Positions 21,563 through 29,890 of a stretch of 64,000 bases of DNA are shown one piece after another. The DNA comes from Streptomyces sp. CG1. GTDB taxonomy: Bacteria; Actinomycetota; Actinomycetes; Streptomycetales; Streptomycetaceae. Below the pieces are notes generated by a model. The model was not told where the DNA came from and did no database searches. It saw only the letters and a list, made by a program, of their open reading frames with translations. The position numbers and the translations under genes are program-made. The stretch's first letter is position 1. Each line of letters begins with the position of its first letter. Where the stretch lies: the NCBI RefSeq assembly GCF_041080625.1, contig NZ_CP163518.1, forward strand, positions 8,735,501 to 8,799,500, read 5' to 3'.

Positions 21563-22294
21563 TCAGGCCAGCGCCGGAGGCCGTTCCCGTTCGGCCGCCT
21601 CGTCGTCCATGTGCCAGTGCAGGTCGCTCACGCCCGGCTCCAGGGACAGACGGGAGATGACCTGCTCCAGCGCGGCGGCGACATCGCCGCTGATCGTGAC
21701 GGTCGCGTGCAGGCTGGCGGTGTCCCCCTCGCGGCGTGCGCGCAGCCCGCTGGGGGCGAGTCCTGAAGCCGCCAGGGTCTGCAGCAGCAGGGCGCGCAGA
21801 TGCGTCTCGGACGTGCGGTCGCACACCAGGTGCACGGTGGCGCGGACGGTGGCGTCGGGGTCGGTGCCGGCGGCCGGGGCCCGGGCCAGCAGGCGCCCGG
21901 CGGGCCGCAGCACCACGTGGACGGCCAGCACGACCACCGTGCCGAGGACGGCGAAGTTCAGGTGGCCGGAGGCGGCCAGCACACCGGCAGCCGCCGAGCA
22001 CCACAGGGTGGCGGCGGTGTTGAGGCCGCGCACTCCGGCGCCGTCGCGCAGGATCACCCCGCCGCCGAGGAACCCGATCCCGGACACCACATAGGAGGCC
22101 ACCCGGGTGGGGCTGCCCGCATCACCGACGGCCTCGCTGTACAGCACGAACAGGGTGGCGCCGGTGGCGACGAGGGCGTTGGTACGCAGGCCCGCCATCC
22201 GTGCCCGCCACTGCCGCTCCACGCCGATCAGCGCGCCGCAGCCGGTGCCGGCGGAGAGCCGGATCAGGAAGTCGAGGGTGGACAGGGAGTGCAC
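21563..22294 (-). CDS. mgtC: MgtC/SapB family membrane protein
   Basis: The 243-residue protein has the MgtC fold: membrane helices with GIGFLGGGVILRDG and RTNALVATGATLFVL, then a cytosolic ACT-like C-terminal domain (about residues 150-230, ending SRLSLEPGVSDLHWHMDDE). MgtC proteins are linked to survival at low Mg2+ and in some bacteria inhibit F-type ATPase. The start is GTG 22294 with AAAGAGGTG upstream. It lies in the operon led by an NRAMP-like transporter. A free-standing copy of its C-terminal domain is encoded at 23142. Family assignment is sure; its exact role here is inferred. Confidence 0.88.
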   Translation of the reverse strand: MHSLSTLDFLIRLSAGTGCGALIGVERQWRARMAGLRTNALVATGATLFVLYSEAVGDAGSPTRVASYVVSGIGFLGGGVILRDGAGVRGLNTAATLWCSAAAGVLAASGHLNFAVLGTVVVLAVHVVLRPAGRLLARAPAAGTDPDATVRATVHLVCDRTSETHLRALLLQTLAASGLAPSGLRARREGDTASLHATVTISGDVAAALEQVISRLSLEPGVSDLHWHMDDEAAERERPPALA

Positions 22295-22374: not shown

Positions 22375-22767
22375 TCAGGAGCGGGGTTCGAGAAACTCCA
22401 GGCGATTTCCGAGTTTGTCGAAGGCATAGAAGCGGTCGTGGCCAGGGAAGTTGTCGTCCCAGGTCACCTCGTGACCGTGCGCCTCCAGGCGCTTGGCGAG
22501 GCCGTGCAGCGCGCGCACGAGGATGCCGGGGTGAGCCTTGGCGGCGGGGCGGAAGTCGGCCTCCACGCCGAGGTGGACCTCCAAACCCCCGCCGCGGAAC
22601 CAGCAGCCGCCGCGAGCCGCGAGGACCGGGGGCTTCTCCAGCTCGGTCATGCCCAGCACCTCACCCCAGAAGGCGCGGCACAGCTCCTCACTGCCGACCG
22701 GGATGGCGAGCTGGACATGGTGCAGCGGGCCGAAGGCGAACTCGGTGGTGGAGTTCTCGGTGGGCAT
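22375..22767 (-). CDS. VOC (glyoxalase/dioxygenase superfamily) protein
   Basis: The 130-residue single-domain VOC protein starts at ATG 22767 with a strong SD (GAAAGGAG). It has HHVQLAIPVGSEELCRAFW at the N-terminus, LEVHLGVEADFRPAAKAHP in the middle and NRLEFLEP at the end. These supply the usual two His and one Glu metal ligands. A close paralogue is encoded at 27656-28045 in the second metal operon. Such proteins may be glyoxalases or resistance proteins. Its duplication with the small proteins suggests a dedicated role in this system. The substrate is unknown. Confidence 0.8.
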   Translation of the reverse strand: MPTENSTTEFAFGPLHHVQLAIPVGSEELCRAFWGEVLGMTELEKPPVLAARGGCWFRGGGLEVHLGVEADFRPAAKAHPGILVRALHGLAKRLEAHGHEVTWDDNFPGHDRFYAFDKLGNRLEFLEPRS

Positions 22768-22783
22768 GTGCTTTCTCCTTTCG

Positions 22784-23167
22784 TCAGTGGTGATCATGAA
22801 GGTTGTCCGGCTCGGGCGGTGCCGCGTGTGCTGCCAGGTGCAGGACGGTGGCGAGCAGGGAGGGCAGGTGCGGGTTGGTGGTGCGGTAGAGCATGCGGTT
22901 GCCGCTGCGGCGTACCGTGACCAGGCCCGCCGCCCGCAGTCGGGTGAGGCTCTGGGAGACGGCGGCGTAGTGCACACCGACGCGCTCCGTCAGCTCCCCG
23001 ACCGAGAGTTCCTGGAGCGCCAGGGTCTGCAGCAGCCGGACACGGATAGGCCCGCCCAGTGTCTTCAACATCGCTACCATGGCGCCGACTTCTGCGTCCT
23101 CGAATGGCGCGGTTGTCGTGCGGACCGGGAGGAAGACGACGTCAGGCGGCTCCTGGACAGCATGCAC
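22784..23167 (-). CDS. ArsR/SmtB family metalloregulator with His-rich tail
   Basis: The 127-residue winged-helix protein starts at GTG 23167 (AAGGAG upstream) and overlaps the preceding gene by 26 bases. The recognition helix region is LTERVGVHYAAVSQSLTRLRAAGLV and the wing is RRSGNRMLYR. The C-terminus is rich in His (PHLPSLLATVLHLAAHAAP and a final NLHDHH), like alpha-5 or C-terminal metal sites in NmtR-type sensors of Ni, Co or Zn. It probably represses genes of this operon when metal is scarce or abundant. No TTGC-N8-GCAA box is seen directly before it. Confidence 0.88.
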   Translation of the reverse strand: MHAVQEPPDVVFLPVRTTTAPFEDAEVGAMVAMLKTLGGPIRVRLLQTLALQELSVGELTERVGVHYAAVSQSLTRLRAAGLVTVRRSGNRMLYRTTNPHLPSLLATVLHLAAHAAPPEPDNLHDHH

Positions 23168-24126: not shown

Positions 24127-24387
24127 CTAGTGCCAGGTGGCTTCGAGGTGGCGGCGGCCGTCGGAGCCGGAGACCGTGTGCCGGCGGGCATGCGGCCGGG
24201 CGTGCTGAGCGCGCGCCAACGGCGTACGAGTGTCTGCCGGGCCGGGCAGCGCGCGGATGACGGTGCTGTCCATGGGGCTGTCAGCGAGCCGGCGCAGGAT
24301 GTGAGCGAACCAGGCGCGCACGGCGCCACGCTTGTGGGCCGGGGCGTGGCCGACGAGCGGGATATGGATCGCGGTCAGGACGGACAT
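24127..24387 (-). CDS. Small protein, duplicated family ending in HLEATWH
   Basis: The 86-residue protein starts at ATG 24387 with SD GGAGGTGAG, seven bases after the preceding gene. A helical core FAHILRRLADSPMDSTVIRAL is followed by a basic, His-rich tail ending GRRHLEATWH. The product of 28086-28352 has the same plan (LAGILRRIADSPLEQPVLHAL and GARHLEATWHTRH). I do not recognise the family. The His-rich tails could bind metal, which is inference. It always sits next to the ARQG-motif gene in the two metal operons. Confidence 0.7.
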   Translation of the reverse strand: MSVLTAIHIPLVGHAPAHKRGAVRAWFAHILRRLADSPMDSTVIRALPGPADTRTPLARAQHARPHARRHTVSGSDGRRHLEATWH

Positions 24388-24394
24388 GGGTAAC

Positions 24395-24769
24395 TCACCT
24401 CCGGAAAGGGCGCGTTGCGGCGACGAGGAGTGACGGAAAGTGCGGGGTGGGGTCGGTGGCTCCCAGAGGCTGGCGGGAGCCGGCGGCCTGGGCGAGGCGT
24501 TCGACGGCCGGCAGGGGCAGGTCGGCGAACCGGGCCAGCCAGCGGGTGTCGCGGCCCTGCCGGGCCAGTAGATAGACGAGGTGGACGCGCGGGTCGTAGA
24601 CGGTGTGCCGGGATGCGGGTCCCGGGCAGACGGCCGGGTCGTCCAGCAGGTAGGTGCGTTCCCGGCCGTCGAACAGGGTCAGCGGCAGTGACGGGCAGGC
24701 GCACCCCGCCGGAGCGAGGCGGCGGACGGCCGAGGCGGTCAGGTGGGCCAGGTGGCGCAGGACGTGCAT
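24395..24769 (-). CDS. Small protein, duplicated ARQG-motif family
   Basis: The 124-residue protein starts at ATG 24769 with SD AAGGGAGAA. Key blocks are LTLFDGRERTYLLDDPAVC and DPRVHLVYLLARQGRDTRWLARFADLPL. The gene at 28475-28744 encodes the same blocks (LTLDDGVDRTYLLD and EPRVHLAHILARQGHRAAWLAEFTRLPL). The second block also recalls RLYTAWILATHGEDAPWIERRLELPA in the membrane-anchored proteins of 13447 and 21004, so all four may share a helical domain. No known function. It is separated from the upstream NRAMP gene by a hairpin. Confidence 0.7.
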   Translation of the reverse strand: MHVLRHLAHLTASAVRRLAPAGCACPSLPLTLFDGRERTYLLDDPAVCPGPASRHTVYDPRVHLVYLLARQGRDTRWLARFADLPLPAVERLAQAAGSRQPLGATDPTPHFPSLLVAATRPFRR

Positions 24770-24846: not shown

Positions 24847-26493
24847 TCAGTTGCCGAGCGCGACCTGGACGATCTTGATCACGACCAGGATCATCGCGAC
24901 GAGCAGGTAGGTCCGCAGAGTACCCATGCCGATCTTGCGAGCGGTGGACATGGTCGGCCGGGTCAGGGTCTCAAGCGGCGGCATCCGCCACTCGTCCTTG
25001 CCGGTCCGGTCGATCGGGTCCTCCTTGGTGCCCGTACGCCGACGGGTGAAGGCGTAGCCGGCGGCCAGGACCCCGACGACGCCGCAGGCGGCCATGATGT
25101 CGAGGATCGCCCCGGAGGAGATGTCCGGGAACAGGACCGAGGCGGTCAGGATGATCGACAGCGCGACCAGCACTCCGACCACGGCCGAGGTGAATGCGTT
25201 GGTCTTCGGGCCGTTCACCCACGGGCCGAGCACGGCCTTGTCGTTGCACAGCAGGAGCAGGAAAACCGACGCGGACGGCAGCAGGACACCGGCCAGGGTC
25301 TGTACGCCCTCGGTCAGCAGGCCCAGCGGTGAGCCGGGGATCAGCACGATGGCGGCAGCGGCGGCGACCAGTCCGGCGTAGACGGCGTAGAAGCCCTTGG
25401 CTCCCTTGACGCCCCGGTGGAGGGAGTGCTTGATGCCGAAGACGTCACCGATGGCGTAGGCGGTGGACAGGGAGACGGCGAACGCGCCGATGATGGAGGC
25501 GTCCAGCAGCGCGATGGCGAACAGCACGCCGGCGAGCTTGCCGGCCTTGTGCTCCAGGCCGGTCGCGATGCCGCCGGCGTCGGTGAACTGGCCGAAGCCG
25601 TGTGTGCCCGCGAAGGTCGCGGCGGTGAAGCCCATCATCGCCGCCGCGCCGATGACGACCACGGCGATGCCGATCCAGAGGTCGGCCTTCTCGTACTTCA
25701 TGAAGCGGGGGGTGATCCGCTTGTCGATGACGTACGACTGCTGGAAGAACAGCTGCCAGGGCGCGACCGTGGTGCCCACGATGCCGATGATCAGCAGCAT
25801 CACCGTGGAGAGCTGGCCGGTGCCGCCGGGCATGTTCGGCACCACGAAGTCCCGGGCCATCTGCGAGGCGTGCGGGTGGACCATGAAGTAGATCGGCACC
25901 AGCAGCAACGAGGCCGCGCACAGGGCGATGGCGACCCGCTCGAACCGCTGGAACGATCCGGTGAACGCCGACGCGATGATGATCCCTGCGGCGAGCACCA
26001 CGGAGGCGGCCTTGGGCAGGCCCAGGTACCCGGACGCGAGGGTGATGCCGATGAACTCGGTGACCAGGGTGAGCGCGTTGAGCAGGAACAGGTCGATGAC
26101 GGAGAACGCGCCCCAGAACTTGCCGAAGCGCTCCAGGATGAGGCGGGCGTGGCCGACGCCGGTGACGGCACCGAGGCGCAGCACCATCTCCTGGTTGACG
26201 TACAGCACGGGAACGAGGAGCAGGAGGGTCCACAGCAGGTGGGTGCCGTAGTTCTGGCCGGCCTGGCCGTAGGTGGCGAAGGCGCCGGCGTCGTTGTCGC
26301 CGACCATGACGATCAGGCCGGGTCCGACTATCGCCAGCAGTGTCTTGAGCTTGGCGGACAGGCCGGTGCGGGGTGCGGTGTCGTCGAGCTTGATGGTGCC
26401 GAGGGCGCCACGGATGTCGCCGACGTGTGCGTCGTCGAGGACTGCGGCGCGCGGGGCCTCGGACACGTTGGTCACAGTGGTCACGGTGGTCAT
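24847..26493 (-). CDS. NRAMP-like divalent metal transporter
   Basis: The 548-residue protein is a paralogue of the 19087 product without the long Pro-rich extension. It shares AVLDDAHVGDIRGALG, the helix-1 motif GDNDAGAFATYGQAGQNYG (D66, N67, D68) and the helix-6 segment TVAPWQLFFQQSYVIDKRITPRF. As in its paralogue, canonical DPGN and MPH motifs are replaced, which argues against a classical Mn/Fe transporter and is compatible with Mg2+. It is the first large gene of a long minus-strand operon and is preceded by a leader of about 500 bases with a conserved small peptide and an ArsR-type box. Confidence 0.88.
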   Translation of the reverse strand: MTTVTTVTNVSEAPRAAVLDDAHVGDIRGALGTIKLDDTAPRTGLSAKLKTLLAIVGPGLIVMVGDNDAGAFATYGQAGQNYGTHLLWTLLLLVPVLYVNQEMVLRLGAVTGVGHARLILERFGKFWGAFSVIDLFLLNALTLVTEFIGITLASGYLGLPKAASVVLAAGIIIASAFTGSFQRFERVAIALCAASLLLVPIYFMVHPHASQMARDFVVPNMPGGTGQLSTVMLLIIGIVGTTVAPWQLFFQQSYVIDKRITPRFMKYEKADLWIGIAVVVIGAAAMMGFTAATFAGTHGFGQFTDAGGIATGLEHKAGKLAGVLFAIALLDASIIGAFAVSLSTAYAIGDVFGIKHSLHRGVKGAKGFYAVYAGLVAAAAAIVLIPGSPLGLLTEGVQTLAGVLLPSASVFLLLLCNDKAVLGPWVNGPKTNAFTSAVVGVLVALSIILTASVLFPDISSGAILDIMAACGVVGVLAAGYAFTRRRTGTKEDPIDRTGKDEWRMPPLETLTRPTMSTARKIGMGTLRTYLLVAMILVVIKIVQVALGN

Positions 26494-26641
26494 GACATAC
26501 CTCCCGAATCCCCCCAGAAGGGGGAGGTAGGGGGCACGCGAAAGCCGTCCCCCCTGCGCGAGTGCGCAGGGCGGCGGCCCGTCACGGCGCAGGGCCGTAC
26601 GGGGCGCAGGACGCGGATGGGAATCCGCGCAGGGGAGAGGG
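26494..26641 (-). promoter_or_regulatory. Structured leader between the leader peptide and the NRAMP gene
   Basis: This GC-rich stretch contains several possible hairpins. One is CCTGCGC/GCGCAGG with loop GAGT (about 26556-26573), one is GCGGAT/ATCCGC (about 26614-26629), and one has GGGGG paired with CCCCC around 26528-26555. Together with the upstream leader peptide it could work as an attenuator. No recognised riboswitch family (M-box or yybP-ykoY) fits by eye. Confidence 0.4.
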
Positions 26642-26719
26642 TTACCGCATGCCGGAAGAATGCGAGGACAAGCGGATCAGGGGCCGACTATGGCCCGGAC
26701 TACTGCTACTGCAGTCCAT
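26642..26719 (-). CDS. Conserved leader peptide upstream of the NRAMP operon
   Basis: A 25-codon frame starts at ATG 26719 with an excellent SD (AAGGAGG) and encodes MDCSSSSPGHS followed by RPLIRL and a Ser-rich end. The leader peptide at 29029-29094 starts with MDSSCSPGHS and has the same kind of SD, so the two are related in sequence, strand and position. Most early Ser codons are AGT, which is rare in GC-rich actinomycetes. The codons for PGHS overlap a small hairpin (26681-26696, loop ATAGTC on the minus strand) that is kept in both copies. I infer translation-dependent attenuation of the downstream transporter genes. Confidence 0.6.
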   Translation of the reverse strand: MDCSSSSPGHSRPLIRLSSHSSGMR

Positions 26720-26988
26720 GTCTCTCGCCTCCTTCCGGCCGGGGACGCGACCTGTGCGCGTCAGCAACGACTCGGCAAGGAGCAACCCAGCCCGAACGGC
26801 CGGCTCACCCCAACTCGTCAGAGCTTTGGCACTCCACGGCGTAATCCCCTTGCGGGGGAAGCCACTTGGGGTCACCCCTTAGGTCGGGGAGACCTGTCCT
26901 GACCCTGGGCGTCTCTCGACGTCGTGGGGTCAGTGGCCTGTGTCCGTGAAGACGCCTCACCGAACGAGGTGCCCTTTTCAAACCTCCA

Positions 26989-27023
26989 CGAGTGTAGCCG
27001 CACACTTGCACATGAACGCAAGT
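26989..27023 (-). promoter_or_regulatory. ArsR-type box and promoter of the NRAMP operon
   Basis: The inverted repeat ACTTGC-N8-GCAAGT (27004-27023) contains the core TTGC-N8-GCAA found at two more places in this island. On the minus strand a -10-like TACACT (26996-26991) follows, and TTGCGT within the box could act as -35 (19-base spacing). A bound repressor would block RNA polymerase. Transcription would start near 26983, giving a leader of almost 490 bases. Confidence 0.6.
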
Positions 27024-27179
27024 TCTTGGCGGAGTCTTGACCGGTAGTCGCCTGTGCGTGTAATGGCGGTCACATCCCTCACGGGTCGCGCGCCGGCATT
27101 GGGCCGGTGATCGATACGGTGAGCCATCGGTGGGCTGACCTGCGCCCACTCCCGGACGCTTTCGCGAAAGGCGCGACGT

Positions 27180-27662
27180 ATGCCCGAGCACGACACTTCC
27201 GCCGAGGTGGTCTCCGTTCCGGTGGGTCGGGTGATCGGAGGCCGGCCGGACGTCCGTGACGACGACTGGGGCAACGAGACGGCCGTCATTCGCCTCGACG
27301 CCACCCGCTTCGGCCCCGACGCGGTGGCCGGCCTGGATGCCTTCTCCCACCTGGAGGTCGTCTACCACTTCGACCGGGTCCCGGTGGACAAGATCGAGAC
27401 CGGAGCCCGCCACCCCCGCGGCAACACCGACTGGCCCCAGGTCGGCATCTTCGCCCAGCGCGGCAAGAACCGCCCCAACCGGCTCGGCGTCTCCCGCTGC
27501 CGCCTGATCAAGGTCGACGGCCTCGATCTGCACGTCCAGGGCCTGGACGCAGTGGACGGCACCCCCGTCCTCGACATCAAGCCCTACATGAACGAGTTCG
27601 GCCCCCAAGGCCCGCTCGCCCAGCCGGAATGGGCCACGACTCTCATGCGCGGGTACTACTGA
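27180..27662 (+). CDS. trmO: TrmO-type tRNA (N6-threonylcarbamoyladenosine-37) methyltransferase
   Basis: The 160-residue protein is a TsaA/TrmO (UPF0066, YaeB) family beta-barrel methyltransferase that uses SAM to methylate t6A37 of certain tRNAs. Characteristic segments are GIFAQRGKNRPNRLGVSRC, which holds the conserved RxxRPN-type SAM site, and LDIKPYMNEF near the C-terminus. It is shorter than the E. coli enzyme, as usual in actinomycetes. It is transcribed divergently from the NRAMP operon, so the ArsR box region may affect both. Its 3-prime end overlaps the convergent VOC gene by seven bases. Confidence 0.85.
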   Translation: MPEHDTSAEVVSVPVGRVIGGRPDVRDDDWGNETAVIRLDATRFGPDAVAGLDAFSHLEVVYHFDRVPVDKIETGARHPRGNTDWPQVGIFAQRGKNRPNRLGVSRCRLIKVDGLDLHVQGLDAVDGTPVLDIKPYMNEFGPQGPLAQPEWATTLMRGYY

Positions 27663-28045
27663 CCCGCCGGTTCCCTGCCGATGGGCTGGAGGAATTCGAG
27701 ACGGTTGCCGACGGGATCCTGGCTGTGGAAACGGCGGTGGCCGGGGAGAGTGGTGTCGTCCCAGATCACGACGGCGCCGAAGGCTTCGAGGCGGGCGGCG
27801 AGCGATTCGATCGCTTCGACACGCAGGCCCGGGTGCGCCTTCGCGGACGCCCGGTACGGGGTCTCGATACCCAGGTGGAGCCGGACCCGCTGGTCGTCGT
27901 CGCTGAACCAGCAGCCTCCGCGGGACGCGAGGTGGCCCGGCCGCGGGACTTCGACGAGGCCGAGCGCGTCGACGTAGAAGGCGCGCAGCAACTCCTCGCT
28001 GCCCAGCGGGGCGGCCAGCTGGATGTGGTCGATTGCAGTGATCAT
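27656..28045 (-). CDS. VOC (glyoxalase/dioxygenase superfamily) protein, paralogue of 22375 product
   Basis: The 129-residue VOC protein starts at ATG 28045 (SD GGAGG). It has DHIQLAAPLGSEELLRAFYVDALG, then RLHLGIETPYRASAKAHPGLRVE and NRLEFLQP, giving the two His and one Glu ligands of the superfamily. The resemblance to the VOC protein of the first metal operon is strong across its length (GGCWF, AKAHPG, WDD...PGH.RF). It is the last gene of the second, shorter operon. Substrate unknown. Confidence 0.8.
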   Translation of the reverse strand: MITAIDHIQLAAPLGSEELLRAFYVDALGLVEVPRPGHLASRGGCWFSDDDQRVRLHLGIETPYRASAKAHPGLRVEAIESLAARLEAFGAVVIWDDTTLPGHRRFHSQDPVGNRLEFLQPIGREPAGQ

Positions 28046-28085
28046 GCGGGACCTCCGCTCGGTGGTAGCGCTGATGTCGGTGATG

Positions 28086-28352
28086 TCAGTGGCGGGTGTG
28101 CCAGGTCGCTTCGAGGTGCCGGGCGCCGTCCGGGCGGGACACCAAGTGCCAATGGGCGTGGGGACGTTGCTGGGGGGTGGCGGCCGTCGCTCGGTGGGTC
28201 GCCTGTACGTCGAGGGCGTGGAGCACGGGTTGTTCCAGGGGGCTGTCGGCGATACGGCGGAGGATGCCGGCGAGGAGGGCACGCATGGACTGCCGGGCGC
28301 TACGCGAGCGGGTGCCGGAGTGGTGCAGGGGGTGGTGGGCGAACACGGACAT
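28086..28352 (-). CDS. Small protein, duplicated family ending in HLEATWH
   Basis: The 88-residue product starts at ATG 28352 (SD GGAGG). It shares with the 24127 product the starting MSV, the helix LLAGILRRIADSPLEQPVLHAL and the tail DGARHLEATWHTRH. The segment between is basic and rich in His and Gln. It lies between the ARQG-motif gene and the VOC gene, the same relative order as in the first operon. Function unknown. Confidence 0.7.
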   Translation of the reverse strand: MSVFAHHPLHHSGTRSRSARQSMRALLAGILRRIADSPLEQPVLHALDVQATHRATAATPQQRPHAHWHLVSRPDGARHLEATWHTRH

Positions 28353-28474
28353 GGGTGGTTGCCTCCGGTGGAGTGTGCGCAAGGCGCACCTTGGCGGCGA
28401 GTCAGCCGGGGTGCGCAGAGGCGGTGGGCCGGGCGCGCCGGCCGGGTGCATGGGTGGCGTGCGGGGTCCGCGCG

Positions 28475-28744
28475 TCAGGGCTGCTCCGCGAGGTGGGTGA
28501 TGTGCTGTGCGGCAGTCAGCGGCAGCCTGGTGAACTCGGCGAGCCAGGCGGCTCGGTGGCCCTGCCGGGCGAGGATGTGGGCCAGGTGGACGCGCGGCTC
28601 GTAGGTCCCGCATCTGCTCCCGGCGCAGGCGAGGAGGTCGAGCAGGTACGTGCGATCGACGCCGTCGTCCAGGGTCAGGCGGACACCCGGGCAGCCGTGA
28701 CCGGGCGGATGAGGCGCGGGGGTGAGGTGGTCGGGGAGGCGCAT
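28475..28744 (-). CDS. Small protein, duplicated ARQG-motif family
   Basis: The 89-residue product starts at ATG 28744 with SD AAGGAGG. It has CPGVRLTLDDGVDRTYLLD followed by EPRVHLAHILARQGHRAAWLAEF, matching the 24395 product. It is the first substantial gene after the second leader peptide, so it heads the short operon. A longer frame to 28804 exists but the SD supports 28744. No known function; probably a small cytosolic helical protein. Confidence 0.7.
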   Translation of the reverse strand: MRLPDHLTPAPHPPGHGCPGVRLTLDDGVDRTYLLDLLACAGSRCGTYEPRVHLAHILARQGHRAAWLAEFTRLPLTAAQHITHLAEQP

Positions 28745-29028
28745 GGCGTTGTCCTCCTTCTTCGGGTGGGAAGGGGGATGGCCGGGCGGCGGGCGCCGCG
28801 GCATCCACTAGGGCGACTGATGCGCCGGTCACGCCGTGGCGGCGGATGGGCCATTGTCGGATCGGCGCGGCGGTGACCGGGCTCGGCGGCAGGAGCGCCA
28901 CCGTGATGAGGATGCGTGCTCGTAACTGGCGTGGTCCGCGGCGCTGTTGACGTCCGGGGGCCTCCCGGATGCGGGGGGCTCCTGCGGCGGTCTCGGCGAC
29001 CGCTCGTCAGGCGGCAGCGCGGAGTCGG
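28745..29028 (-). other. Leader region between second leader peptide and its operon
   Basis: No gene is seen on either strand. If transcription starts at the box near 29213, this is untranslated leader, comparable in place to 26494-26641. I see no recognised riboswitch. Confidence 0.4.
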
Positions 29029-29094
29029 TCAGGCGCGCAGAGGAGAGTCCGGACGCGGGGCCGGACTATGGCCGGGACTGCAACTGCTGTCCAT
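29029..29094 (-). CDS. Conserved leader peptide of the second metal operon
   Basis: A 21-codon frame starts at ATG 29094 with SD GAAGGGGG. It encodes MDSSCSPGHSPAPR and a Pro-rich end (PDSPLRA). It resembles the leader peptide at 26642-26719 in the first eleven residues, in repeated use of the rare Ser codon AGT, and in the small hairpin over the PGHS codons (29059-29074). It is followed by the ARQG-motif, HLEATWH and VOC genes. I infer a cis-acting leader peptide rather than a functional protein. Confidence 0.6.
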   Translation of the reverse strand: MDSSCSPGHSPAPRPDSPLRA

Positions 29095-29212: not shown

Positions 29213-29232
29213 ACTTGCACATCGACGCAACA
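29213..29232 (-). promoter_or_regulatory. ArsR-type box upstream of the second leader peptide
   Basis: ACTTGC (29213-29218), eight bases, then GCAA (29227-29230). The box core differs from the one at 27006-27021 at only a few central bases, and it lies about 120 bases before the leader-peptide ATG. A minus-strand -10-like TATGGC overlaps its downstream side. Confidence 0.55.
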
Positions 29233-29479: not shown

Positions 29480-29884
29480 CTACCGACCCAGCGCGGGCCT
29501 GTGTGCTCCCAATGCCTGGCGTGCCATGGCGGGTCGTTCCTCCGCCACTGCGGCCGACTCCTCGTCTACGCCGTCCCCGGCCCCCGAGGTGTCGCCTCCC
29601 GCCCTCGCCACCCGCTGCGCCTCCTCCAACAGCCCGCGCACGCCCGCAGCCCGGTAGTAGATCCGCGTACCCTCCCGTCGCGTGGTCACCAGCCCGGCCG
29701 CGCGAAGCCTGGCCAGGTGTTGCGACGTCGCGGCGACATGGGCGCCCAGCAGTCGGGCCAGCTCGCCCACCGGCAGCTCACGGCCGCTCAGCACCCACAG
29801 CAGGCGGAAGCGCGAGGGGTCGGCCGCGGCCTTGAGTACCGCCACCGCGCGCTCCGCGTCCCACGCCTCTTCTTGCGTATCCAC
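29480..29884 (-). CDS. ArsR family transcriptional regulator
   Basis: The 134-residue winged-helix repressor has AAADPSRFRLLWVLSGRELPVGELARLLG, the recognition region AHVAATSQHLARLRAAGLV and the wing TRREGTRIYYR. AHVAATSQHLA resembles the NmtR/KmtR branch, but the C-terminus lacks the His-rich tail of the other ArsR protein here. GTG 29884 lies inside a TTGC-N8-GCAA box, so repression would block initiation and the mRNA may be leaderless. As the only gene in the window with the box on its own start, it is the best candidate for the regulator of both leader-peptide operons. Confidence 0.88.
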   Translation of the reverse strand: MDTQEEAWDAERAVAVLKAAADPSRFRLLWVLSGRELPVGELARLLGAHVAATSQHLARLRAAGLVTTRREGTRIYYRAAGVRGLLEEAQRVARAGGDTSGAGDGVDEESAAVAEERPAMARQALGAHRPALGR

Positions 29885-29890
29885 GCAATT
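29871..29890 (-). promoter_or_regulatory. ArsR-type box over the arsR start codon
   Basis: TTGC (29873-29876), eight bases, GCAA (29885-29888); the GTG start is within the spacer. TAGGCT (minus strand, just upstream, 29896-29891) could be a -10 element for a leaderless transcript. Confidence 0.55.

Follow-up and report, generated by a model that had tools for sequence, protein, structure and literature searches.

Two related short open reading frames (ORFs) on the minus strand of a 64,000-nucleotide stretch of Streptomyces sp. CG1 (contig NZ_CP163518.1, positions 8,735,501 to 8,799,500; called the window here) precede two duplicated operons and seem to belong to a family of leaders that accompanies magnesium control in Actinomycetota. 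The explanation that we consider best, and fairly likely, is that leader 1 is the first ORF under a translational M-box riboswitch, which would allow its translation at low Mg2+ and thereby turn on the operon behind it; as part of the same joint explanation, and with the same leaning, the leader would be a module common to the members of one magnesium regulon, controlled by an M-box, by an ArsR-type operator or by the two together. Leader 1 (MDCSSSSPGHSRPLIRLSSHSSGMR; 26719..26642), for which 53 relatives were found, follows the Shine-Dalgarno (SD) sequence AAGGAGG (26728..26734, minus strand), and leader 2 (MDSSCSPGHSPAPRPDSPLRA; 29094..29029) follows AAGGGGG, which is weaker. The gene after leader 1 is of the Nramp family, and leader 2 precedes an operon for the small proteins ARQG and HLEATWH and a VOC-type protein. 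A preliminary description of this DNA had taken these operons for duplicates, and their relatedness is confirmed by identities of 52% over 77 residues (ARQG), 54% over 67 (HLEATWH) and 54% over 117 (VOC). Its account of the leaders likewise agrees with the sequence as to position, starts (MDCSSSSPGHS and MDSSCSPGHS), SDs (apart from the weaker one of leader 2), repeated AGT serine codons and a small hairpin with an ATAGTC loop, which reads GGGCC-ATAGTC-GGCCC in leader 1 and, by eye, GGCC-ATAGTCC-GGCC in leader 2.

The preliminary description overlooked an M-box directly before leader 1, as well as a stem behind leader 1 and an MgtC gene further down. The M-box (ykoK) Mg2+ riboswitch aptamer (RF00380; 26975..26802, minus strand) scores 136.4 bits (E 1.3e-30) against an Rfam gathering score of 44 and agrees with the family in both sequence and structure; before leader 2 no Rfam family was matched at E up to 5, the M-box included. 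The 3' end of the aptamer overlaps an anti-anti-SD (aaSD) GGGGUG (26811..26806), which can form a hairpin (26774..26811, minus strand) with an anti-SD (aSD) GCUCCUUGCC (26783..26774). The same platform hairpin, formed by the CGCUCC region and the GGGGUG that follows the aptamer, has 94.8% of its cells paired among 36 relatives of the longer leader type (36 of 40 regions, L120, L081, L084 and L095 being out and L041, L094 and nine loci without a script-located aptamer end having been excluded earlier). Twenty cells changed on both sides compared with 6.7 ± 2.5 in shuffled alignments, and the covariation score of 0.230, against 0.165 in shuffles, was equalled by none of 500, albeit for a structure that was predicted from nearly the same sequences; counted by pairs, four showed two-sided change compared with 2.3 in shuffles, a value reached by 46 of 500. 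In the consensus fold UUGCC of the aSD pairs with its complement GGCGA, which follows the leader SD, and CUCCUU is complementary to the leader SD AAGGAGG itself. Moreover, CACC precedes UCGUU in 57 of the 65 loci in which UCGUU was located (81 inspected) and could pair with GGUG, so that the two states of the platform would presumably exclude each other.

How could such an arrangement control the operon? With Mg2+ bound, the aptamer stem P1 would form and probably extend into the GGUG of the aaSD, the aSD would be free to cover the leader SD, and with the leader silent, Rho would presumably terminate transcription in the C-rich leader region. At low Mg2+ the aaSD would pair with the aSD, the leader would be translated and ribosomes would cover the C-rich stretch, leading to expression of the transporter operon, probably by preventing Rho termination. 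The ligand, the translation, the part of Rho and the direction of the effect are what we infer here. C exceeds G across the leader by 0.15–0.29 per base in both Streptomyces types and by 0.06–0.15 in the mycobacterial type introduced below (40-nucleotide windows), and G exceeds C in the stretch just before the leader (43, 29 and 34 loci in the three groups); the resemblance of the C-rich leader to a Rho entry region is suggestive only.

The architecture, its conservation, the platform covariation and the in-frame spacing of the core emerge directly from the computation. In the 11.1 Mb genome the 16-mer AGTCCSGGCCATAGTC has four exact copies and one with a single mismatch, and all five are leaders; two mismatches add 12 places, of which three were inspected (L006-L008) and none was a leader, and the reversed sequence, used as a control, matched 37 times when up to two mismatches were allowed. 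A sixth leader, MDRSSSPGHDRPHTPVSPHSSGIR at G000:C1:751071, precedes an MgtC gene and was found with a 24-base version of the core, so that the genome holds at least six, and more divergent copies may exist. Four of them sit behind the four M-boxes of the genome and before two NRMT-like genes, one MgtE gene and one VOC gene, the M-box before the latter being incomplete (model positions 11-156).

A scan of named genomes that left the spacing between start and core free returned 55 stretches, of which L060 (from a metagenome-assembled genome of Sedimentisphaerales) and L067 (Prevotella) have no SD and were taken as chance. The other 53 loci lie in Streptomyces, Kitasatospora, Streptantibioticus and Amycolatopsis and form two classes: a longer, MDC..SSPGHSRP-like leader before Nramp or VOC genes and the short MDSSPGHSRP before MgtE. 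An M-box is present in 38 (barely above the cut-off in L075) and was not detected in 15; in several of these the aptamer is, by eye, shortened while SD and leader are intact (for example L062, L071, L077, L079, L081), and L041 combines a similar leader with the same operator as leader 2. Across the genus Streptomyces, 22 of 392 genomes carry 37 M-boxes, a lower bound since the filters lose weak matches, and a leader follows 35 of the 37 (the four of the own genome included in both counts, L108 counted despite ten masked bases, as were the divergent L112, L119, L121 and L122). The exceptions are L115, discussed below, and L116, in which a terminator but no clear leader is present. The 16-mer itself occurs at 42 places in the genus: 17 behind M-boxes, one as leader 2, and 24 others that were all read, 12 with SD, start and leader and 12 taken as chance, compared with 18 matches in a reversed control; the M-box-free places overlap with loci of the named-genome scan. 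A second leader type in the genus (MSPWSSPEPDSG.. and MSPWHSPEPASG.., behind M-boxes at L055:2891-3067 and in L121) is nearer to the mycobacterial type.

Are these ORFs held as reading frames? Any spacing having been allowed, the distance from start to core is a multiple of three in 53 of 53 loci (9, 12, 15, 18 or 21 bases). The serine codons are sharply partitioned: Streptomyces leaders have AGT 84 times, AGC nine times and TCN never among the 93 of the N-terminal part, and AGY never and TCN 83 times in the C-terminal part, at a background of AGT in 6 of 115 serine codons of six frames of the window. In the mycobacterial type (29 of 34 loci) the first ten codons contain AGT 68, AGC 15 and TCN 26 times (109 in all) and the remainder AGT once, AGC 12 and TCN 111 times (124 in all). 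This bias indicates strong constraint on the N-terminal core at the level of codons or RNA and less clear constraint at that of the peptide. In the Streptomyces set the proline of the core usually falls within residues 5-9 and is missing from L122. The preliminary description thus gains from the conserved ORFs before metal operons, their in-frame spacing and the codon bias of the core, and its expectation that peptide and SD recur in other genomes holds, with the reservation that constraint on the frame is weak in the core and absent in the C-terminal part.

Outside the genus, M-boxes were found in 76 of 148 genomes of a mycobacterial-type genus, in which one M-box has a PE-family gene behind it. 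A short ORF with an SD follows the M-box in 34 of 34 loci inspected (28 mostly the best-scoring among the matches listed, six from a phylum sample), and 32 share a [DSG]SP core, as in MSSSDSPGRSPNCVSSRSVLRSDLRG, the exceptions being L137 and L020. A family belonging to another class has M-boxes in 3 of 11 genomes, at the same three loci as in the phylum sample, each followed by a terminator-like stem, a short ORF (MESDPGHRC.., MESDPGSRC.. or MDSEPGSMC..) and an Nramp-like gene. The leader therefore extends from mycobacteria to Streptomyces relatives and probably to this family. That it is universal behind actinobacterial M-boxes was considered and rejected: in the phylum sample, where 26 of 296 genomes have M-boxes, 13 of the 28 loci inspected showed no leader of this kind (L017-L019, L021, L023, L024, L026-L031, L034), L025, L035 and L037 with CTG-start candidates only being excluded from this count. 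Furthermore, L032, L033 and L036 have short ORFs with early acidic and proline residues behind M-boxes (MPEGNSQQPGD.., MPEDGERPSRQR.. and MPDDGEQPSRHR..).

The second control element of the proposed regulon is the operator. The pattern TTGCGTN{2,8}GCAAG matches three times in the window where 0.05 matches are expected: upstream of the M-box (TTGCGTTCATGTGCAAG, 27005..27021), upstream of leader 2 (29214..29230) and over the start codon of ArsR_b (29872..29888), all on the minus strand. TTGCGTNNATRYGCAAG occurs exactly at four sites of the genome, one ahead of each of the two M-box/NRMT operons, one ahead of leader 2 and one across the ArsR_b start, with a reversed control finding none at up to one mismatch; four sites with one mismatch lie before leader 6, before the M-box of L005, and at L190 and L191, behind which no leader was seen in the 260 bases inspected. 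Five of the six own leaders consequently have an operator-like site, the MgtE leader being without one. The ArsR protein next to leader 6 is 71% identical to ArsR_b over 94 residues, and an ArsR protein would be the candidate for binding this operator. Two related ArsR genes have such a palindrome across their start codons (29872..29888 and L189:604-621), an arrangement that points to leaderless, self-controlled genes.

The regulated metal is most probably magnesium. The transporter behind leader 1 (24847..26493, minus strand, with SD 26505..26499) belongs to Pfam Nramp and appears NRMT-like. Its best match among PDB sequences is 7qia (E 9.4e-48, the next 7.2e-19), which we take to be EleNRMT, as the paper on these transporters supports. 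EleNRMT carries Mg2+ and Mn2+, and the binding-site motif of NRMTs is DxxG-TxxA/T, according to the accessible parts of that paper (PMC8806188). The TxxA half is present here (TTVAPW), with DxxA (DAGA) in place of DxxG in the first half, and the likely substrate is Mg2+. In the own genome leaders precede two NRMT genes and MgtE, MgtC and VOC genes or operons.

The closest known counterpart is in Mycobacterium tuberculosis. The accessible text of PMC12810186 describes that the M-boxes of pe20 and rv1535 carry an upstream ORF (uORF2: Rv1805A and Rv1535A), with Rv0115A as an M-box-free homolog, and that the platform and Rho dependence were measured; the peptide is there called mycobacteria-specific. 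Since this leader was already published, the kind of leader is not undescribed, contrary to the preliminary description, which knew of no precedent; our own literature search found no description of it outside mycobacteria, most subscription journals lying outside its coverage. Common to both are the M-box, the aaSD-aSD-SD2 platform (here seen as computed pairing and covariation), a short uORF, an N-terminal Ser/Pro core and M-box-free paralogs. Leader 1 closely follows an M-box as a short ORF that has an SD of its own, an arrangement to which leaders 2 and 6, like Rv0115A, do not conform. Pro is at residue 7 in most uORF2 peptides, and a Pro near that residue marks the core here too, a comparison by description as homology of such short peptides is unprovable by score; in the same sense, likened by description and not by its letters, the 34 mycobacterial-type ORFs fit the published uORF2. 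The leaders of the window differ in lying outside mycobacteria, in the core PGHSRP, in their NRMT-like, MgtE, MgtC and VOC targets and in the ArsR-type operator. The M-boxes of Bacillus subtilis ykoK and of the Clostridium acetobutylicum Nramp-type gene likewise precede MgtE or Nramp-related Mg2+ genes (PMC4072509; ykoK via PMC12810186) but use an intrinsic terminator, and the accessible portion of PMC4072509 mentions no leader ORF. MgtL of E. coli mgtA is also a leader peptide before an Mg2+ importer, and some families here share its early acidic and proline residues (accessible part of PMC11282234), but the Streptomyces leaders have no EPDP-type repeat and stand mostly behind an M-box. With a single early acidic residue each, MDCSSSSPGHS and MDSSCSPGHS do not show the acidic repeat with Pro near the N terminus of MgtL-type intrinsic ribosome destabilization, and the comparison with mgtL/mgtP drawn in the preliminary description survives as a likeness of logic only.

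Several observations weigh against M-box-gated leader translation as the full explanation. Leaders 2 and 6 have no M-box, the latter since all four M-boxes of the genome map to other places, so that M-box control cannot be the whole story, and in L115 M-box and transporter are kept and the C-terminal part remains while leader SD, start and N-terminal core are gone, a natural loss of the leader. The bias of substitutions in the core is weak, with pN/pS of 0.60 in frame compared with 0.76 and 0.85 out of frame on the same bases (28 leaders with 12 distinct cores, taken from 28 of 32 genus M-box loci; L108, L115, L116 and L121 not taken). In the C-terminal part no frame constraint was found, at 0.85 with controls of 0.87 and 1.22 (28 distinct parts) or, for the 15 distinct parts of the commonest length, 1.15 with controls of 0.78 and 0.79; the frame thus rests mainly on spacing, SD and start. 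The main termination site in M. tuberculosis lies upstream of uORF2 (accessible text of PMC12810186), a poor fit with simple shielding by uORF2, and because the G-rich stretch before the leader holds the leader SD, part of the skew is expected. Covariation of the stem behind the leader was not above shuffles, 47 of 500 reaching its score. Constrained folding covered 24 Nramp-type, 26 MgtE-type and 32 mycobacterial-type loci; in the Nramp type, blocking the leader stop as a ribosome would made the transporter SD no easier to open, the mean cost rising from 7.84 to 8.97 kcal/mol, with a lower value in 8 of 24 loci.

The last result bears on the idea of direct translational coupling, which we regard as very unlikely and in which a ribosome on the stop codon of the leader would melt the stem behind it and so open the transporter SD. 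This idea was suggested by a well-conserved CCACCUUCCCUGCGCG-like element behind the stop in 24 distinct Nramp-type loci that is complementary to the SD (mean z -0.68 relative to shuffles; 17 of 24 loci fell below the mean of the controls); MgtE-type loci have no such complementarity peak behind the stop, and in the mycobacterial type the peak lies inside the leader. In partition-function folds, however, the element prefers another partner, a CGCAGGG arm further downstream; among the 19 loci with a located arm this pairing predominates in 15, is partial in three, the window's own included, where a local hairpin competes, and is absent in L103. In the window the predicted long-range stem (26548..26641, minus strand) joins the element (26641..26626) to CGCGCAGGGGGGA (26560..26548), spanning from the leader 1 stop toward the transporter gene, and 94.6% of its cells are paired in 20 loci, the other four of the 24 having been omitted for their long inserts. 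The interval from leader 1 to the transporter gene also contains a GC hairpin that resembles a terminator and has a short run of T (26541..26578, minus strand); the arm able to pair with the post-stop element is the 3' arm of this hairpin. Blocking the stop gave the idea no support in the other groups either, the mean cost moving from 7.30 to 7.62 kcal/mol in the MgtE type (lower in 7 of 26) and from 5.23 to 5.00 in the mycobacterial type (lower in 12 of 32). Of the translation-coupled attenuator proposed in the preliminary description, the conserved leader ORFs before metal operons therefore stand and coupling to the transporter SD finds no support in folding.

It could be imagined instead that the leader is a second, ribosome-based Mg2+ sensor, in which the early D/E...P core and the AGU-CCG codons slow or destabilise the ribosome at low Mg2+ and its state decides on expression after the M-box, much as the MgtL ribosome falls off at EPDP in low Mg2+ (accessible part of PMC11282234). 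This tentative alternative would account for the 15 loci without a detectable M-box, some with visible aptamer deletions, for leaders 2 and 6 behind operators only, for the AGT bias in both types, and for early acidic residues with Pro in other families (MESDPG, MDSEPG, MPEDGERP). Blocking the N-terminal core, moreover, lowered the mean SD-opening cost from 7.84 to 7.21, from 7.30 to 6.13 and from 5.23 to 5.10 kcal/mol in the three groups, a drop of 0.6 kcal/mol for the Nramp type and 1.2 for the MgtE type (means, without a significance test). Against it, the single acidic residue of the Streptomyces leaders forms no repeat, and the AGT bias could equally serve RNA structure or initiation. An ancient actinomycetotal leader acting as a ribosome gate for magnesium genes, in addition to the M-box or instead of it, in which decoding of AGU-CCG and of the early acid-Pro core reports Mg2+, would give each mRNA leader two successive sensors, the second outlasting the riboswitch, a possibility that we hold to be doubtful. 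A product role of the peptide, as a small protein acting on the transporter or another target, was hypothesized for Rv1805A by its authors (accessible text of PMC12810186) and agrees with the in-frame spacing, the at least six copies in one genome and the M-box-free copies; it appears rather unlikely here in view of the weak in-frame bias of the core, the missing bias of the C-terminal part and the strong constraint at the codon level. Several near-identical copies in one genome and the weak in-frame bias could also point to a DNA-level repeat or mobile element, which is hardly credible given that all 53 loci have an in-frame core preceded by SD and start codon and that the position behind M-boxes is constant.

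Apart from the transporter, the remaining genes behind leader 1 and its M-box are, on the minus strand, ARQG_a (24395..24769) and HLEATWH_a (24127..24387), neither with a Pfam or NCBIfam match at E 0.01, the ArsR/SmtB-type regulator ArsR_a (22784..23167; NCBIfam HTH_metalloreg at 70.7 bits, cut-off 55), the frame holding VOC_a (22375..22977; no Pfam match of its own) and, at the downstream end, an MgtC family protein (21563..22294; Pfam MgtC 9.6e-35). The second copy comprises the metalloregulator ArsR_b (29480..29884; 79 bits for the same family and cut-off, 56% identical to ArsR_a over 68 residues), ARQG_b (28475..28744), HLEATWH_b (28086..28352) and VOC_b of the glyoxalase/VOC superfamily (27656..28045; Pfam Glyoxalase_6 1.3e-5). 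Between both operons lies a TrmO-like gene on the plus strand (27180..27662; 84.2 bits, below the NCBIfam cut-off of 93.25), a relative of which is present in pieces next to the second NRMT operon (L003).

In these data a published uORF of unclear role that was said to be confined to mycobacteria emerges as a wider companion of actinobacterial magnesium riboswitches. M-box losses that keep the leader, and the leader loss that keeps the M-box in L115, offer natural test cases. The regulon of one genome links M-box, ArsR-type operator and NRMT-like, MgtE, MgtC and VOC genes, and the ARQG and HLEATWH proteins gain a likely context in magnesium stress.

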